A DNA stretch of 64,000 bases from Thermocoleostomius sinensis A174 (lineage in GTDB: Bacteria; Cyanobacteriota; Cyanobacteriia; Elainellales; Elainellaceae): positions 1 to 64,000 of the forward strand of contig NZ_CP113797.1 of assembly GCF_026802175.1 (NCBI RefSeq), given 5' to 3'. Below, piece after piece: positions 5,168-18,883 of the stretch. A program made the position numbers and the translations under genes. Position 1 is the first letter of the stretch, and every line of letters begins with the position of its first letter. The notes beneath the pieces are model-generated. The model ran no database searches. It was not told where the DNA came from and saw only the letters and a program-made list of their open reading frames with translations.

Positions 5168-7741
5168 CTAGGGTTGAATCCGAGACAGGGCTTGCCAATC
5201 GCGAACAGTGGCATCTTTCCACAACCAGTTGCGCTGAAGCACATCTGCCCGGAAGTTGTTGGGATCTTGTTGCTGCACCATCTGGTAAAGCCTAGCGGCT
5301 TTGCGAATCAGATTCTCTTGCTGTGCAGGCGACTGACCGATCGAAGCATCCCACAATGCCAAGGCAATTCCTGCATAAACCGTCAACCGCTCTTGGAGGG
5401 CTGTCTCTTCAGCCGCAACCATGTTAGCTGAACTAGTATCAGCAGCGGCCAAGGTCACAGCAGGCGCTTGCTCCAGGGTATTCAACGCCCTGTTCCAGGT
5501 TTGCATGGCTCGCAGTGGTTGATTTTCTGCATAATAGGCAAATCCCAAAGCTTCCTGATACTTAGGATTATCGGGAGCCGCATTAGCCGCCAGTTCCCAA
5601 TAGCGACGCGCATCGGCTAGCGTGTGCACAGGACTACCCGTATCAATTCCCTGCCAGGACAAGCGCCCCCAGAGGTAGTTAATCTCCGGCGTATCTACGC
5701 TGGTCGGAACGGCTGCCAAGGCTTCAGCAGCAGCCTGAAGCTCGCCTCGATCGAGCAAGGCAGTAACAGCCGCTTCACCCTCAGCATATTGTTGACGGCG
5801 AAAATGGTTGATGGCAAAGGTTTTTACTGCTTCCGAATCCGCTGTTTGTAGGTTAAGAGACCCAACAATGGGCAGCGAAGAGTTGTCTGGAAACTGAAGC
5901 CCTAGACCGCCACTTTGAATTTGAGAATATGACCAAATACCGATCGCCACAACTGCCGCTGCACTCAAGGTTCCTACTACTGGCTTAAGCAGCCGTCGCC
6001 GGGCTGAAAGGGGTTCTGTCTGATTGGATTCAACCGCTGTAGGAGTTGCCACGGCTAAGGGAGCCGCCTCTGGTTGCCGTTCTGCAATCACCGCTGTGGG
6101 AGGTTTGTCTTGCTGCATTACCGGATTAGCAACAGGCGCAGAGGTGGGTTTAGCAACAGGCATAGCCACAGGAGCAAGGGGAGAAGCCGTTGATCCGGGC
6201 AAGGCAGCATCAGAGGAAGACAGTTGCCGCAATAAGTCTGCGACAAGGCTGGCATCTTCTTCGTATGTCTGCTCTAAGTCTGCTGTGTCGTTAGTCCAAT
6301 CTGAAGCTTGATGGGTTGATGTTAAAGATGGCTGTACCGTATCATACGGCGATCGTGCTGGCCAGACAGGACGGGATATAGGCATTCCATCTTCAGCCCC
6401 GGTGAGGGAGAACGCCCCATAGAGTTGTGGCAGCAGCACCAACCGCTCAGCCGGGTTCGCCACGGGTTGAATTGGAATCACATAGCCATCAAATTCCGGA
6501 TGCAAGTATAGAACCGGGAGGGCCCAATACAGTTGATGCGAGCTATAGGCTGAGATCAAGCCTTGACGCGCCCGGCTTAAGCTGAGATCGATCGGATAGC
6601 CCAATTTCAAGTTGCGATAGAACAGCCAGGTTAGCGTCAACGCCACATTGTCTGGAATTTGTTCGGCCATGGCCAGCACTGCCGGAATACCGCGACTGAC
6701 CAAAGTTTCGGCCAAGTTGCGCTCCTGTGGCTGATTAGAGTTGGACGCAGCCGTGTAGGCCCCTCGGCAGGAGTTAAACACCGCTAAACGAATGCCATTA
6801 TTGACCAATAGCCCAGCTAAATCGTTGCCAGTCAGAATTTCTGTCAAGCCAGTGCGAGGGTTCACCAGGTACAGACTCCCGCCGTTTGCCCCTAAATCAC
6901 TATGACCTGCATAATGAAGAACCTGATAGCGACCTTGTTCCAGTGCTTGCGTCAGTTGTTCACGTCCGGGTTGCTTCAGAATCGTCAGTTGCACATCCGG
7001 TAAAGGGGTCGCTACCGCATCGGGTGTTGGAGCCACTTGATTTTGCAATTCTTGCTGAAGGCGGGTAGCTTCCTGTTCTAGTTTCAGGCGTTCGCGATCG
7101 GTTGGAGCGGCAATCACCATCAGTACCCGCAACGGCTGATTAGGCTCTGGGGTTGAGATCAAACTTTCCACAGCCAACCGTACATTGGGCTGATAGCGCG
7201 AAAAAATCACATGGGTGCCTGCGGTCAGCGGACGAGAAGCGGCTCCCACGCTGCCTGGTTGTCGTTCGGCCGGAGTATCGTTAGCATAGAGCACTTCCCA
7301 CGGCAACCGCAGCACTTGCTGCCCCTTCAGTCCTAACCGCAGCCGCAGTGTTTCGTTGCGATGCTGGGCAATGCCTTGGGCTGTCACCCAACTATCGCGC
7401 AACGTGCCTTGAAATAGTGCACTATAAAGCTGCTGACCAAGCTCAACCAAGCTGAACGACGGATGCGAGTCTGGTAATCCTACACTGGATGAAACACCGT
7501 TAGGTAATGAGACGGTCGAGGACAAGCCGGAGCGATCGCGCAGGGTACTAGCCGGAGCGTGACCTTGCAGCAGTCCCATCAGCGGATCGTTCATAAGTTG
7601 ACGGGCTTGAACCAGCCATTTCTCGATCGGCCATCGAACTTGCTCTTCAGCCAGCGGCACTCCGGGTGCAACACGCTCGGTTCGCACTAGGTATTCATCT
7701 TGTCCAACTGGGGTTACAGAGATATCAAATTCTTGAGTCAC
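5168..7741 (-). CDS. CHAT-domain (caspase-like) protease with membrane helix and C-terminal TPRs
   Basis: 857 residues. Domain order: an N-terminal region typical of cyanobacterial CHAT proteins (about 1-200), the CHAT caspase fold with the His of HYAGH (H280) and the Cys of VFNSCRGA (C325) as the expected catalytic dyad, a proline/alanine-rich linker (about 500-580), one membrane helix (about 587-606, VVGTLSAAAVVAIGIWSY), then TPR-like repeats to the C-terminus. The catalytic domain thus lies on one side of the membrane and the TPRs on the other; orientation is not determinable here. CHAT proteins are peptidases used in signalling, stress and some defence systems; no CRISPR or gasdermin gene lies beside it. 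It ends 122 bp upstream of the agmatinase start and may or may not be co-transcribed. Confidence 0.88.
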   Translation of the reverse strand: MTQEFDISVTPVGQDEYLVRTERVAPGVPLAEEQVRWPIEKWLVQARQLMNDPLMGLLQGHAPASTLRDRSGLSSTVSLPNGVSSSVGLPDSHPSFSLVELGQQLYSALFQGTLRDSWVTAQGIAQHRNETLRLRLGLKGQQVLRLPWEVLYANDTPAERQPGSVGAASRPLTAGTHVIFSRYQPNVRLAVESLISTPEPNQPLRVLMVIAAPTDRERLKLEQEATRLQQELQNQVAPTPDAVATPLPDVQLTILKQPGREQLTQALEQGRYQVLHYAGHSDLGANGGSLYLVNPRTGLTEILTGNDLAGLLVNNGIRLAVFNSCRGAYTAASNSNQPQERNLAETLVSRGIPAVLAMAEQIPDNVALTLTWLFYRNLKLGYPIDLSLSRARQGLISAYSSHQLYWALPVLYLHPEFDGYVIPIQPVANPAERLVLLPQLYGAFSLTGAEDGMPISRPVWPARSPYDTVQPSLTSTHQASDWTNDTADLEQTYEEDASLVADLLRQLSSSDAALPGSTASPLAPVAMPVAKPTSAPVANPVMQQDKPPTAVIAERQPEAAPLAVATPTAVESNQTEPLSARRRLLKPVVGTLSAAAVVAIGIWSYSQIQSGGLGLQFPDNSSLPIVGSLNLQTADSEAVKTFAINHFRRQQYAEGEAAVTALLDRGELQAAAEALAAVPTSVDTPEINYLWGRLSWQGIDTGSPVHTLADARRYWELAANAAPDNPKYQEALGFAYYAENQPLRAMQTWNRALNTLEQAPAVTLAAADTSSANMVAAEETALQERLTVYAGIALALWDASIGQSPAQQENLIRKAARLYQMVQQQDPNNFRADVLQRNWLWKDATVRDWQALSRIQP

Positions 7742-13314: not shown

Positions 13315-13396
13315 AAATCAAATGCATTTAGCCCCTTGACTCTCCAGTTCACTGGATAGTTCAACATAGGAGATGTTCCTTACAACGGTGCCAATC

Positions 13397-13591
13397 ATGA
13401 CCCTTCAGTTCACAGTTCCCAATTTGGCCTGTTCTGCTTGTGGAGACACGATCGCCACTGCAATCAAAGCGATTGATTCGACTGCTATCGTGCAAGCTGA
13501 TCCCAAAACCAAGCAAGTCAGCGTCGAAACTCAACAATCGGAAGCAACCATTAGACAAATTATTACTGAAGCGGGCTATACCGTGAGCTAG
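13397..13591 (+). CDS. Heavy-metal-associated domain copper chaperone
   Basis: 64 residues, a single HMA ferredoxin-like domain: MTLQFTVPNLACSACGDTI, where the two cysteines of CSAC bind Cu(I), ending in AGYTVS. Equivalent to Atx1-type chaperones that hand copper to P-type ATPases. The internal ATG at 13397 matches the family N-terminus; an ATG at 13373 abuts AGGAG with no spacing and would add eight residues. The copper ATPase begins 52 bp downstream, so the pair are functional partners in copper delivery or export. Confidence 0.88.
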   Translation: MTLQFTVPNLACSACGDTIATAIKAIDSTAIVQADPKTKQVSVETQQSEATIRQIITEAGYTVS

Positions 13592-13643
13592 CTAGGTGAG
13601 GCAATGAAAGGCAGGGTGCTGAGGCAAAGAATGAGGAAAAAGC

Positions 13644-15923
13644 ATGGATACAGTCACTCTAAAGCTGCAAGGTATGAGTTGTGCCGCCTGTGCTAACAAC
13701 ATTGAAGCGGCAATCCGCTCGGTTCCGGGCGTTGAGGTTGGACACGTCAACTTTGGGGCAGAACAGGCAACGGTGCACTATGATCCTCGGCGAACGAGTC
13801 CTGAAACAATTCAGCAGGCGATCGAAGTGGCGGGCTATGCGGCCTGCTTGCTCCAAGAACAAGAACCAATCACAGGCGAAACAGATGCCGAACAAGCTGC
13901 CCAACAAGCCGAATCGCGCAAATTGAAACGACGGCTGCTGTTTGGTGGAGTTGTCACCACAATCCTGATCATGGGTGGCTTACCGATGATGACCGGATTA
14001 CCGTTGCCCTGGATTCCCATGTGGCTGCATCATCCTGTGTTTCAGCTAGTTCTTACTACCCCAATTCAATTTTGGAGTGGCGAATCGTTCTACACTGGAG
14101 CCTGGAAAGCCTTCAAGCGCCATACGGCTACAATGGACACCTTGGTCGCTTTGGGAACCAGTGCTGCGTTTTTCTATTCGCTTTTTCCTACTTTCTTTGC
14201 TGAATTTTTTCTGCACCAGGGCTTGTCGCCGGATGTTTATTACGAAATCTCGGCGGTGGTGATTACGCTGATCTTGCTGGGGCGATTGCTGGAAAACCGG
14301 GCCAGGAAGCAAACCTCTGAGGCAATTCGTAAGCTGATTGGGTTGCAAGCAAAAACGGCCCGAGTAATTCGCAATGGTCAGGAGATAGATATCCCGATCG
14401 CAGAAGTGAAATTGGGAGAGATCATTCTGGTGCGTCCCGGCGAAAAGATTCCTGTTGATGGAGAGATTGTAGAGGGTGCTTCCACGATCGATGAAGCAAT
14501 GGTGACGGGAGAAAGTGTTCCCGTTAAGAAACAGCCAGGTGATGAAGTCATTGGTGCGACTATCAACAAAACGGGAAGCTTTAAGTTTCGGGCTACGCGA
14601 GTTGGAAAAGATACCTTCCTAGCGCAAATTGTGAAACTCGTACAACAAGCTCAGGGATCTAAGGCTCCGATTCAAAAGCTGGCAGATCAAGTAACTGGAT
14701 GGTTTGTCCCGGTCGTGATTGCCATTGCAATCTTCACGTTCGTTCTCTGGTTCAACCTGATGGGCAATGTCACGATGGCATTGATTACCACTATTGGTGT
14801 GCTGATCATTGCTTGCCCATGTGCGCTGGGATTGGCTACCCCCACCTCAATCATGGTTGGCACTGGTAAAGGAGCCGAGAATGGTATTTTGATTAAAGGA
14901 GCGGAAAGTTTAGAACTGGCTCACAAAATTCAAACAATTGTTTTAGATAAAACCGGAACCATTACCCAAGGAAAACCAACGGTGACGGATTTTATATCAG
15001 TGAATGGAACAGCCGATCGCAATGAATTGAAGCTGTTACGTTTGGCGGCCTCACTGGAGCGCTACTCTGAGCATCCCTTAGCAGAAGCAGTGGTGCAATA
15101 TGCTCAATCCCAATTGCTAGGAGACGATAGTGATGCGCTTTTGATCGATGCTAGCCAGTTTGAAGCAATTGCAGGTAGCGGTGTCCAAGGCTATGTATCC
15201 GATCGCTGGGTGCAAATTGGAACTCATCGCTGGATGAATGAGTTACACATTGACACTACTAGTTTGCAACAGTCATGGGAACGATTGGAGTATTTGGGAA
15301 AAACTGTGATTTGGATTGCAATCGACGGCAAAATTGAAGCGATTATGGGAATTGCTGATGCCGTTAAATCCTCATCTGTTAGTGCCATCCGAGCCTTGCA
15401 AAAGCTGGGACTGGAAGTCGTGATGCTCACCGGAGATAATCAGCGTACTGCTAATGTCATTGCACGGGAAGTAGGCATTCAGCGCGTCTTTGCCGAGGTT
15501 CGCCCCAATCAAAAGGCGGCTACAGTGGAAAACCTGCAATCAGAAGGCAAGATTGTAGGCATGGTGGGAGATGGCATCAATGATGCACCAGCGCTGGCTC
15601 AAGCTGATGTGGGTATGGCGATCGGCACGGGGACCGATGTGGCCATTGCTGCCAGTGATATTACGCTGATTTCTGGAGATTTACAGGGGATCGTCACCGC
15701 CATTCAACTATCCCGTGCAACGATGCGCAACATTCGCCAAAATTTATTCTTTGCTTTCATCTACAACGTGGCAGGTATTCCGATCGCTGCTGGTATTCTT
15801 TACCCCGTTTTTGGTTGGTTGCTTAGCCCGATTGTCGCAGGTGCAGCTATGGCATTCAGTTCTGTGTCAGTTGTGACGAATGCCTTGCGGTTGCGGCGTT
15901 TTAAGCCAGTAGGTGTCCGGTAA
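13644..15923 (+). CDS. Copper-translocating P1B-type ATPase (PacS/CtaA/CopA family)
   Basis: 759 residues, full length. One N-terminal HMA domain ([10 protein letters not shown], Cys13/Cys16), eight predicted membrane helices, the metal-site CPC at 391-393 ([16 protein letters not shown]), the actuator TGES (288-291), the phosphorylation motif DKTGT (D435), the HP motif in SEHPLAEA, and [10 protein letters not shown] in the hinge. It exports or delivers Cu(I) using ATP. In cyanobacteria CtaA is in the cytoplasmic membrane and PacS in thylakoids; the sequence alone does not separate them, though the adjacent chaperone fits either. Confidence 0.95.
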
Positions 15924-16001: not shown

Positions 16002-16322
16002 ATGGAGAAGAACATAACAACGATCGCTAGCTGTATTGCCAATGTAGGGTTGGTGTTTGGGGTTGTAACTGCAAGTGCTGTGGCACAACTGCCCCATGAT
16101 ATGACCAATATGCCTGCTGCAACTCAGCAAACAGAACAGTTTCGCCCAATTGAACAACCACTTGGTATCAAAGCGGCAGTAACAGTAGGTGGATTAGGAC
16201 TGATTGGGTTGGAATTATGGTGGTTTTTGTTCAGTAAACCCACATCAAAACAGGCGGCAGTAGCAAGCAGAATCAAGGAAGTTACGGTGACGAGAGCATC
16301 TAGGGAGACTACCACTCAGTGA
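16002..16322 (+). CDS. Signal/anchor protein, apparently a cupredoxin precursor lacking its cupredoxin domain
   Basis: 106 residues. A signal-like segment (about 8-28), a short linker (FRPIEQPLGIKA), one membrane helix (VTVGGLGLIGLELWWFLFS) and the basic stretch SKPTSKQAAVASRIKEVTVT. I recall the same linker-helix-EVTVT arrangement in membrane-anchored cyanobacterial cupredoxins encoded near copper ATPases, where EVTVT leads straight into the copper-binding beta-sandwich. Here the frame ends 10 residues later, and no cupredoxin-like sequence is visible in the next 200 bp in any frame. It may be a truncated gene or a distinct small membrane protein. It lies 78 bp after the copper ATPase, so a copper role is likely. 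Confidence 0.6.
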   Translation: MEKNITTIASCIANVGLVFGVVTASAVAQLPHDMTNMPAATQQTEQFRPIEQPLGIKAAVTVGGLGLIGLELWWFLFSKPTSKQAAVASRIKEVTVTRASRETTTQ

Positions 16323-16523
16323 TGTTGGCTCATCCTCGATGCTTCTGTCAGCTTTCTGCAAGCCAGATATCATCATCAAGCCAGTGAAATGGAATAAAAG
16401 AGGAATGAATCAAAACTAATGGTTTCGTATTCTAGAAATTAAGCGAAAGCTACTCAGTTATACAAACGCGAAAGCCAATGCATACTGAGTTGTACATATC
16501 GATTTCATCTATCGGAGAATCTT

Positions 16524-16685
16524 ATGGAAATGTCTGAAAACAAGGACATGTTTACCGAACTAACCGCTGATGAGACAGCCGCACTGAACGGTGGTCGCTA
16601 TTGCTACTACTACTGGGCTTACCGCTGCTACTGGTACTACTACCGTTACATTTGCCGCTATTTCCGTTACATTTACTGCTACTAA
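16524..16685 (+). CDS. Double-glycine-leader peptide with Tyr/Arg/Cys-rich core (candidate RiPP/bacteriocin precursor)
   Basis: 53 residues from the ATG at 16524; GGAGA lies 7 nt upstream. The acidic N-terminal half ends in ELTADETAALNGG (residues 12-24), a typical leader for C39-type peptidase processing. The predicted 29-residue core starts RYCYYYWAYRCYWYYY and ends YIYCY. It holds 14 Tyr, 5 Arg, 4 Cys and 2 Trp. The cysteines at 27, 35, 44 and 52 are spaced 8, 9 and 8 residues. The strict frame, ribosome site and downstream terminator (16805) support a real gene. No modifying enzyme or peptidase/ABC exporter is encoded nearby; the next gene is a two-partner-secretion transporter. Core function and modification are unknown. 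Confidence 0.8.
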   Translation: MEMSENKDMFTELTADETAALNGGRYCYYYWAYRCYWYYYRYICRYFRYIYCY

Positions 16686-16804: not shown

Positions 16805-16837
16805 GGAGCATCTTTTGACGGGGGTGCTCCTTTTTTT
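16805..16837 (+). terminator. Rho-independent terminator after the Tyr-rich peptide gene
   Basis: GGAGCA (16805-16810) pairs with TGCTCC (16825-16830), with further pairing toward the loop, followed at once by seven T. It ends the peptide transcript and separates it from the outer-membrane transporter gene. Confidence 0.8.
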
Positions 16838-17014: not shown

Positions 17015-18883
17015 ATGAGGGTGATTTCAAACCAACTTGCTCTGGCGGGTTCCAGCAGTCTCGTGCTCTTGAGTACGTTCACTAATACAATTCCAGGTGC
17101 GATCGCTCAACCCTTGCCTCCCGGTGCTATTGATCCATCTACCATCGATCCAACGGATATTCCCGATCGGCAACTCGACTTGCCACTGCCACCGCCTATT
17201 CCGCAACCACGCCCCTCTGATCTGCTAGAGCCACTGCCCGACCAACCGCCAGCCTCCCCCCCAGATCCAGAGTTGCAAACGCCCGATTCAACGATTCCCT
17301 CCATCGATCCAGCCATCAGCGCCAGCTTTTTTGTAGAAACGATTGAAGTCTCCGGTAACACGGTTTTAAGCGACGAAATTGCAACCCTGACAGCAGCCTA
17401 CGAAAATCGGGATGTTACCTTTGAAGAATTGATAGCCTTGCGATCGCAAATCACCCAACTGTATTTTGATAATGGCTACATTACCTCCGGCGCATTCTTG
17501 CCCAATAATCAGGATTTGAGCGACGGCACAGTTGAAATTCAAGTGATTGAAGGGGAAATTGAACAGATAGAAGTGTGCTTGTTGTCGCCTCGGTCTGGAC
17601 TCGTTGATGCAGAATCCGAACAATCGCCCGATGCAGAAGAGCCATCCGCCACGCCTGCCCAACCTCGCTGTGGATCGGCACGGTTGCGCGATGCCTATGT
17701 ACGCGATCGCCTCCGGTTAGCCAGCGGCACGCCTGTCAACCAACGTCGCTTAGAAGAAGCCCTGCAACTGCTGCAACTGAATCCGCTGATTACCCAAGTC
17801 AATGCTGAGTTAACCGCAGGCAACGCTCCGGGACGTAACGTTCTGCGGGTACAGGTGCGAGAAGCGCCAGCGTTTCATGCGGGGATCGGAGTAGACAATT
17901 ACCAGTCCCCTAGCATTGGTTCAGTTCAGTTGGGCGTCTTTGCCAGCTACGACAATGTGCTGGGATTTGGCGATCGAATCAGCGGCGGTTATAGCTTGAC
18001 CGAAGGACTTGATTCCTATGACATTGGCTATGCTTTTCCCGTCAATGCCCTCGATGGTACCTTGCAAGCCCGCTATAGTCGCGATGACAGCATCATTGTG
18101 CAAGAACAGTTTGAAGATCTGGAGATTCGCAGCGAGTCTGAAACCTTTTCCTTTGGCTTCCGGCAGCCAATTGTCCGTCGCCCTCAAACTGAATTTGCCC
18201 TAGGACTCACCTTTGACTTACGCCGCAGCCAAACTTTTATTTTGAATGATATTCCCTTTTCGTTTTCGGAAGGGCCAGACGATGGCGAATCCAAAGTGTC
18301 CGTGTTGCGGTTTTCGCAAGAGTGGGTCGATCGCAATGCCAGACAGGTTCTTGCTGCCCGATCGCAGTTTAGCGTTGGATTAGATATCTTCGATGCCACC
18401 GTCAACGATATCGGCACAGATGGTCGCTTTTTTGCCTGGTTGGGACAGTTTCAATACGTGCAGCAACTGAATTCCGCTGGTTGGCTCCTGCTGGCGCGGG
18501 TCGATACGCAACTAACGCCCGATTCTCTCTTGCCCCTCGAACAGTTTGCGATCGGCGGAGCCGGAACAGTACGCGGCTATCGCCAAAACCAATTCGTGAC
18601 AGACAACGGCATTTTAGGTGGACTGGAATTCCGCATTCCCCTCACCGACGATCCTCAAGAACTGCAACTCACCCCGTTTGTTGATGTTGGCTATGGTTGG
18701 AACAACCGCACTCCTGACCCAAATCTGGCTCTTGTCAGCACGGGGCTGGGCGTGCGTTGGCAAGTGACTCGAGATTTGAATATGCGCTTAGATTACGGCA
18801 TTCCGCTCGTTGCCATTGAAGGGCGCGGCGATTCGCTTCAAGAAGATGGGTTTTTGTTCTCCATCCGCTATCAACCATTTTAA
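17015..18883 (+). CDS. ShlB/FhaC/HecB-type outer-membrane transporter (two-partner secretion, Omp85 superfamily)
   Basis: 622 residues. Signal peptide (about 1-31), a proline-rich linker (about 32-95), a POTRA domain (FFVETIEVSGNTVLSD through EGEIEQIEV, about 105-190) with a Cys-flanked acidic insertion, a second POTRA-like part (about 225-280), and a 16-strand barrel to the terminal aromatic residue (IRYQPF). The FAIGGAGTVRGYRQN block contains the conserved VRGY of the plug loop. It exports large TpsA proteins across the outer membrane. No TpsA exoprotein gene is in the window. It begins about 180 bp after the terminator of the Tyr-rich peptide gene. Confidence 0.9.
   Translation: MRVISNQLALAGSSSLVLLSTFTNTIPGAIAQPLPPGAIDPSTIDPTDIPDRQLDLPLPPPIPQPRPSDLLEPLPDQPPASPPDPELQTPDSTIPSIDPAISASFFVETIEVSGNTVLSDEIATLTAAYENRDVTFEELIALRSQITQLYFDNGYITSGAFLPNNQDLSDGTVEIQVIEGEIEQIEVCLLSPRSGLVDAESEQSPDAEEPSATPAQPRCGSARLRDAYVRDRLRLASGTPVNQRRLEEALQLLQLNPLITQVNAELTAGNAPGRNVLRVQVREAPAFHAGIGVDNYQSPSIGSVQLGVFASYDNVLGFGDRISGGYSLTEGLDSYDIGYAFPVNALDGTLQARYSRDDSIIVQEQFEDLEIRSESETFSFGFRQPIVRRPQTEFALGLTFDLRRSQTFILNDIPFSFSEGPDDGESKVSVLRFSQEWVDRNARQVLAARSQFSVGLDIFDATVNDIGTDGRFFAWLGQFQYVQQLNSAGWLLLARVDTQLTPDSLLPLEQFAIGGAGTVRGYRQNQFVTDNGILGGLEFRIPLTDDPQELQLTPFVDVGYGWNNRTPDPNLALVSTGLGVRWQVTRDLNMRLDYGIPLVAIEGRGDSLQEDGFLFSIRYQPF

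Follow-up and report, generated by a model that had tools for sequence, protein, structure and literature searches.

Cyanobacterial double-glycine leader peptides with mirror-placed cysteines, a candidate family of exported disulfide-laddered hairpins

The clearest result of this analysis is a family of small cyanobacterial precursors in which a conserved double-glycine (GG) leader is followed by a core with cysteines placed as mirror images around its centre. The starting member is a gene of 53 codons (16524–16685, forward strand) in the window, i.e., the first 64,000 nucleotides of contig NZ_CP113797.1 of Thermocoleostomius sinensis A174, and it has homologues in six other genomes. We favour, with moderate confidence, the explanation that these genes encode an exported and probably antimicrobial hairpin peptide with laddered disulfides, served by a C39-peptidase ABC exporter/HlyD route and by a dedicated thioredoxin. 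Recognition and cleavage of the acidic GG leader would be the task of a C39-peptidase ABC exporter whose gene is located at 5.2945 Mb on the same chromosome. Before export, a thioredoxin-domain protein of the cytoplasm that serves these peptides specifically would keep their cysteines from oxidation, and after export the core would fold into one long antiparallel beta-hairpin with two nested cross-strand disulfides (3-28 and 11-20, counting the residue after GG as 1). This folded core, cationic and rich in aromatic residues, would most probably be antimicrobial, attaching to the membranes of other microbes and perturbing them.

The window gene has a ribosome-binding site, GGAG (16514–16517), 6 nt ahead of its ATG and an intrinsic terminator with an 11 bp stem and a T7 tail (16805–16837), so that the precursor looks like a single-gene unit. 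The original prediction of a 53-residue frame with a ribosome site and a 29-residue core was borne out by translation, composition and cysteine spacing included. The leader MEMSENKDMFTELTADETAALNGG (16524–16595), with a putative C39-peptidase cleavage after GG that is suggested by the alignment of nine members, precedes the core RYCYYYWAYRCYWYYYRYICRYFRYIYCY (16596–16682), which contains 14 Tyr, 5 Arg, 4 Cys (spacing 8, 9, 8) and 2 Trp. Searches of Pfam, NCBIfam and PADLOC placed the window precursor in no family, five precursors gave no match up to E = 10 to the bacteriocin families of NCBIfam, including those of NHLP or Nif11 type, no RNA element was found with Rfam, and a search for plasmid copies of the precursor gave no match. 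Upstream are found a small frame resembling a heavy-metal-associated domain and then a P-type metal ATPase gene, by its look of the copper type (together 13373–15923), apparently unrelated to the peptide, and between the ATPase gene and the precursor there is a 106-codon frame (16002–16322) whose N-terminus resembles a signal sequence and which has one more hydrophobic segment.

When the single sequence was used as query, one homologue each was found in G004 and G005, which belong to the same taxonomic family as the window genome, and a profile search added G224 and G289 (another taxonomic family) and later G484 and G442 (a third one). The 5.81 Mb genome that contains the window has two further paralogues on the minus strand (5295272–5295442 and 5295555–5295728), giving nine precursors in seven genomes. 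With the single sequence the E values were 1e-7 to 1e-10, and with the family profile, in which the homologues themselves are included, they were 1e-26 to 1e-30. These homologues are full-length, covering both leader and core, which indicates that the window frame is more than a chance reading frame. A lack of homologues in related genomes, which had been named originally as a ground for refutation, does not apply here. The family is real but rare: precursors were present in five of 390 genomes sampled across the class and in two more among 391 genomes of one large order, two partly overlapping draws that represent only part of the class. A scan of GTDB contigs gave no match with the single sequence, and with the alignment only Cyanobacteria bacterium FACHB-502 was recovered, at the same contig position as the precursor of G004.

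Throughout the family the leader is conserved and the cores are divergent, changing fast between species. Six leader residues (L13, E17, L21, N22, G23 and G24) are invariant in all nine members. The core is under purifying selection between G224 and G289, where we counted 10 synonymous differences over 17.7 sites (pS 0.57) against four non-synonymous ones over 69.3 sites (pN 0.058), and their leaders had zero non-synonymous differences. All nine cores, 29–34 residues long, carry a net positive charge of +4 to +10 provided by Arg (there is one Lys in all nine together), lack Asp and Glu altogether and have an aromatic content of 26–59%.

The main evidence for a hairpin comes from the placement of the cysteines. 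In the window peptide they are found at core positions 3 (16602–16604), 11 (16626–16628), 20 (16653–16655) and 28 (16677–16679), where 3 would pair with 28 and 11 with 20, both sums being 31; the Cys at 3 is invariant, as is the C-terminal Cys-Tyr. The two paralogues of the same genome have cysteines at 3, 11, 24, 32 and at 4, 12, 25, 33, the members of G004, G484 and G442 at 3, 13, 18, 28, those of G289 and G224 at 3, 9, 22, 28 and that of G005 (locus L033, 382–540) at 3 and 28 alone, i.e., the inner pair is absent and only the outer one is kept, a situation that parallels the animal hairpin peptides with one disulfide. Mirror pairs, in which the sum of the two positions is constant (31, 35 or 37), are thus present in all eight members with four cysteines, with three to four kinds of inner register (11/20; 11/24 or 12/25; 13/18; 9/22). 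The near-regular spacing that had been noticed originally holds in the window peptide, but as a description it was understated, since the pattern is a mirror symmetry of the whole family. The outer pair is simply conserved; the informative part is the inner pair, which shifts from rung to rung but always on both strands together.

If the cysteines were placed at random, a symmetric inner pair would be expected with a probability of about 0.04 each (about 1 in 23 to 27), and the joint chance of the symmetry is 1.3e-7 when five groups of close relatives are considered, or 8e-5 with the count restricted to three distinct registers. The rule was derived from the first seven sequences and recorded before the G484 and G442 members turned up, and both of these later finds obey it (3, 13, 18, 28) and carry the thioredoxin gene. 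Among background GG peptides only one core had exactly four cysteines, in a non-symmetric arrangement, too small a number (n = 1) to serve as a control. The distance between outer and inner cysteines is always even (6, 8 or 10), which would place all of them on one face, and the mirror centre coincides with a turn-like motif (TWYG, TWFG, YWYG, NWYG, YGFY, VGYF or YYYR). In the window peptide this centre is Tyr15-Tyr16 of the core (16638–16643), the predicted hairpin turn; the turn Gly is absent there, and relatives have xWYG at the same centre. Mirror cysteines, even spacing and a central turn are what an antiparallel hairpin with cross-strand disulfides would require. AlphaFold2 models built with a two-sequence alignment placed strands at residues 27–37 and 42–52 of the window peptide and at 27–38 and 41–52 of the G004 peptide, in both cases matching the register predicted from the cysteines. 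The models, of moderate quality (mean pLDDT 68.6, pTM 0.33–0.34), are support for this register and not proof of it, as AlphaFold2 may readily draw aromatic, beta-prone sequences as hairpins. Foldseek searches returned no significant match, and in the PDB there was no meaningful neighbour in sequence or fold and no detectable sequence homology. Altogether, we consider a core folded as a hairpin with laddered disulfides to be quite probable, and disulfide linkage, one of the two options proposed for the cysteines originally, is their best reading given the mirror placement across the family.

This predicted architecture has well-known counterparts in animals, where peptides such as arenicin, tachyplesin and protegrin act by binding and disturbing membranes. 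The likeness to these peptides and to capitellacin would extend to the single antiparallel hairpin and the nested cross-strand Cys pairs, both predicted here, and it includes the richness in Arg and aromatic residues and the near lack of acidic ones; in the NMR structure of capitellacin the ladder is formed by Cys5-Cys18 and Cys9-Cys14 (PMC7761999). According to a 2026 review (PMC13001179), natural beta-hairpin antimicrobial peptides tend to be cationic with a preference for Arg over Lys, and all the members reviewed have 11–25 residues. The cores described here match these traits (Arg charge, aromatic content, no Asp or Glu) with the exception of length, and the match leads us to favour a membrane-active secreted peptide; with 29–34 residues we liken the family to the beta-hairpin antimicrobial peptides and do not class it as a member. 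The excess length counts against an antimicrobial hairpin, as do the moderate quality of the models, the negative Foldseek result, the high Tyr content and missing turn Gly of the window copy, and the TPS adhesin genes beside five of the seven loci (see below), which would point to a surface or matrix role; we also recognised no immunity gene. We would give the antimicrobial role of the exported peptide about an even chance. Biosynthesis also differs, as the animal and plant hairpins are made with a signal peptide and a prodomain instead of a GG leader, a C39 exporter and a dedicated thioredoxin.

The genes next to the precursors are consistent with this export route. The original prediction had taken the double-glycine leader as a signal for a C39 ABC exporter and had suggested looking for one elsewhere in the genome. 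Besides the conservation of the leader in nine of nine members, a C39-peptidase ABC exporter (5294485–5294883) was found directly downstream of the two paralogous precursors, together with HlyD. It is 66–70% identical to the exporters of G004, G005, G224 and G289 and 57% identical to another C39 exporter of its own genome. The order precursor, C39-ABC, HlyD, thioredoxin is found as an operon in the six other genomes. Next to a second C39-ABC exporter of the window genome (locus L067, 3.795 Mb) there is, upstream, another GG-leader precursor (5452–5727) with an Arg/Asn/Pro-rich core (GGRRRSNTNTRRRRRPARRPRRR...).

The thioredoxin gene is a fusion in G004, G005, G224 and G289, with an N-terminal domain and a C-terminal thioredoxin domain that has a CEPC motif, and in the window genome this fusion, with CQPC as its motif, is encoded at 580.7 kb and is not linked to the precursors. 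G484 and G442 have instead a plain thioredoxin of 132 residues in the same operon (CQPC in G484). Genes with the fusion-type N-terminal domain, which has the motif Y-x-[CM]H-[LF]-T-[DS]-x-R, were located at L086 7666–8550, L032 4435–5325, L033 4537–5418, L098 7958–8584 and L099 7760–8386. The domain was detected in seven of the 390 genomes, and five of them are exactly those with precursors. The other two, G117 and G135, were not counted as fusion-thioredoxin genomes, as the domain is found there without thioredoxin and without nearby GG precursors, adjoining psaA/psaB-like genes. As reducing thioredoxins typically have a CxPC motif and the partner proteins show no obvious signal peptide, we infer that these proteins hold the cysteines in the reduced state ahead of export.

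The same neighbourhoods bear on two other readings. Tyr, Trp and Arg of the core could be joined by radical-SAM or P450 enzymes, as the enzyme-made cyclophanes contemplated originally, and a leader followed by an aromatic-rich core would suit such a product. However, at the linked loci no neighbouring gene was recognised as coding for a radical-SAM, P450 or other maturation or crosslinking enzyme, the one recurrent extra enzyme there being the thioredoxin, and the alignment conserves the outer cysteines and the mirror rule but not the aromatic positions, which makes a crosslinked product very improbable. The exported hairpin could also be sensed by kin cells as a signal, given that pheromones too use GG leaders and C39 exporters and that the cores diverge fast between species. 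We regard this as improbable, since the loci have no recurrent neighbour that codes for a receptor or a histidine kinase (a response-regulator-like gene is present in G005 only) and cationic, aromatic cores of 29–34 residues are unlike the short pheromones.

A second kind of neighbour belongs to two-partner secretion (TPS). In G004 and G224 the precursor operon has TpsA and TpsB genes on its flanks, and in G005 and G289 a TpsA gene (some of these genes were assigned from N-terminal similarity only). The gene that follows the precursor in the window (17015–18883, forward strand) codes for an outer-membrane transporter of the TpsB/ShlB type (PF03865, 1.6e-33). It has 60–62% identity to its TpsB counterpart in the G004 cluster and matches that protein better than does the other TpsB-like locus found in this genome. 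TPS genes thus adjoin the precursor in five of the seven genomes (G004, G005, G224, G289 and the window genome), with none beside the G484 and G442 loci. The linkage to TpsB, like the mirror placement of the cysteines and the cognate family in other genomes, goes beyond what had been originally predicted. In G004 a gene whose product has RTX calcium-binding repeats (L032 10028–10906) separates the precursor from TpsA, and in the window genome a gene that resembles it (L067 12568–13356) is found downstream of the 3.80 Mb C39 exporter.

From the resemblance of its TpsB to that of the G004 cluster, the window locus looks like a fragment of an ancestral cluster whose parts have been dispersed. The window copy could then be a stray duplicate, no longer expressed, left from the break-up of an ancestral precursor-exporter-TPS cluster. 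It is the most Tyr-rich member and stands alone beside TpsB, the exporter and the paralogues being located at 5.29 Mb and the thioredoxin gene at 0.58 Mb. Its frame and leader are intact, though, and the four mirror cysteines, the ribosome site and the terminator have been kept, so that we deem such decay improbable.

The strongest rival to an antimicrobial role comes from these same TPS genes. The peptide could be part of a biofilm or sheath matrix, in which Tyr/Arg/Cys hairpins, joined to one another by disulfides or stacked into amyloid-like sheets, would assemble by themselves and work on the cell surface together with the filament adhesins of TPS. Long aromatic beta-hairpins tend to aggregate, and the five loci with adjoining TPS genes would fit such a partnership. 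There is also a precedent in Synechococcus elongatus, where the small GG-motif proteins EbfG1-4, exported by the C39 transporter PteB, are required for biofilm formation and EbfG1-3 form amyloid (PMC4997328, PMC9981879). Their cores contain Tyr as well. The mature EbfG proteins, however, have 6–7 kDa and, by the account of the paper, lack homology to proteins of other cyanobacteria (PMC4997328). Against the matrix role, the G484 and G442 loci have no adjoining TPS genes, the Cys register appears tuned within each molecule, as expected of intramolecular and not of intermolecular bonds, and membrane-active peptides typically have such a strong and uniform positive charge. We therefore consider a matrix function unlikely, although clearly less so than the other alternatives, and retain the exported antimicrobial hairpin as the preferred reading.

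GG-leader clusters of cyanobacteria were catalogued in 2011 as groups I–VII (Wang, Fewer and Sivonen, PMC3140520). The loci described here share with those double-glycine bacteriocin clusters the small GG-leader precursors, the short-type C39-ABC exporter and HlyD. However, the main text of that work makes no mention of thioredoxin, cysteine or disulfide, and the cores of our family match no NHLP or Nif11 model. Another group with similarities is formed by the GG-leader arrays of Nostocales-like genomes (e.g., G616, locus L117), with a leader of the form LFTDLSxEESAxINGG, Tyr/Arg-rich cores often ending in Cys-Tyr and a C39 exporter nearby; they differ in their long, low-complexity, Gly-rich cores with few cysteines, and at the G616 locus no thioredoxin gene was seen. 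Such arrays, with long Tyr/Arg/Gly-rich cores many of which end in Cys-Tyr, were observed in L117 (9037–11101, G616), L106 and L113. The Tyr/Arg/Gly-rich GG peptides of the large order, recovered as weaker search matches, are perhaps distant relatives of the family.

The mirror Cys pairs of these cyanobacterial peptides recall the hairpin antibiotics of horseshoe crabs and lugworms, and bacteria may have invented such peptides too. To the knowledge of the authors of the 2026 review, natural beta-hairpin antimicrobial peptides are restricted to Animalia and Plantae, and they ask whether these peptides are truly rare or merely unfound (PMC13001179). We tentatively propose, at somewhat less than even confidence, that the family described here is the first prokaryotic one of beta-hairpin antimicrobial peptides with laddered disulfides, of independent origin in cyanobacteria, with C39-ABC/HlyD export, a thioredoxin of its own and an inner disulfide that slides between rungs from species to species. 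Should the peptides build matrix instead, they would tie C39-exported peptides to two-partner-secretion adhesins. If the antimicrobial reading is true, an antibiotic fold that ranks among the most potent would have arisen convergently in bacteria, together with dedicated machinery for export and thiol handling, and the combination of a GG leader and mirror cysteines would provide a sequence rule for mining as well as a natural bacterial route to such peptides.
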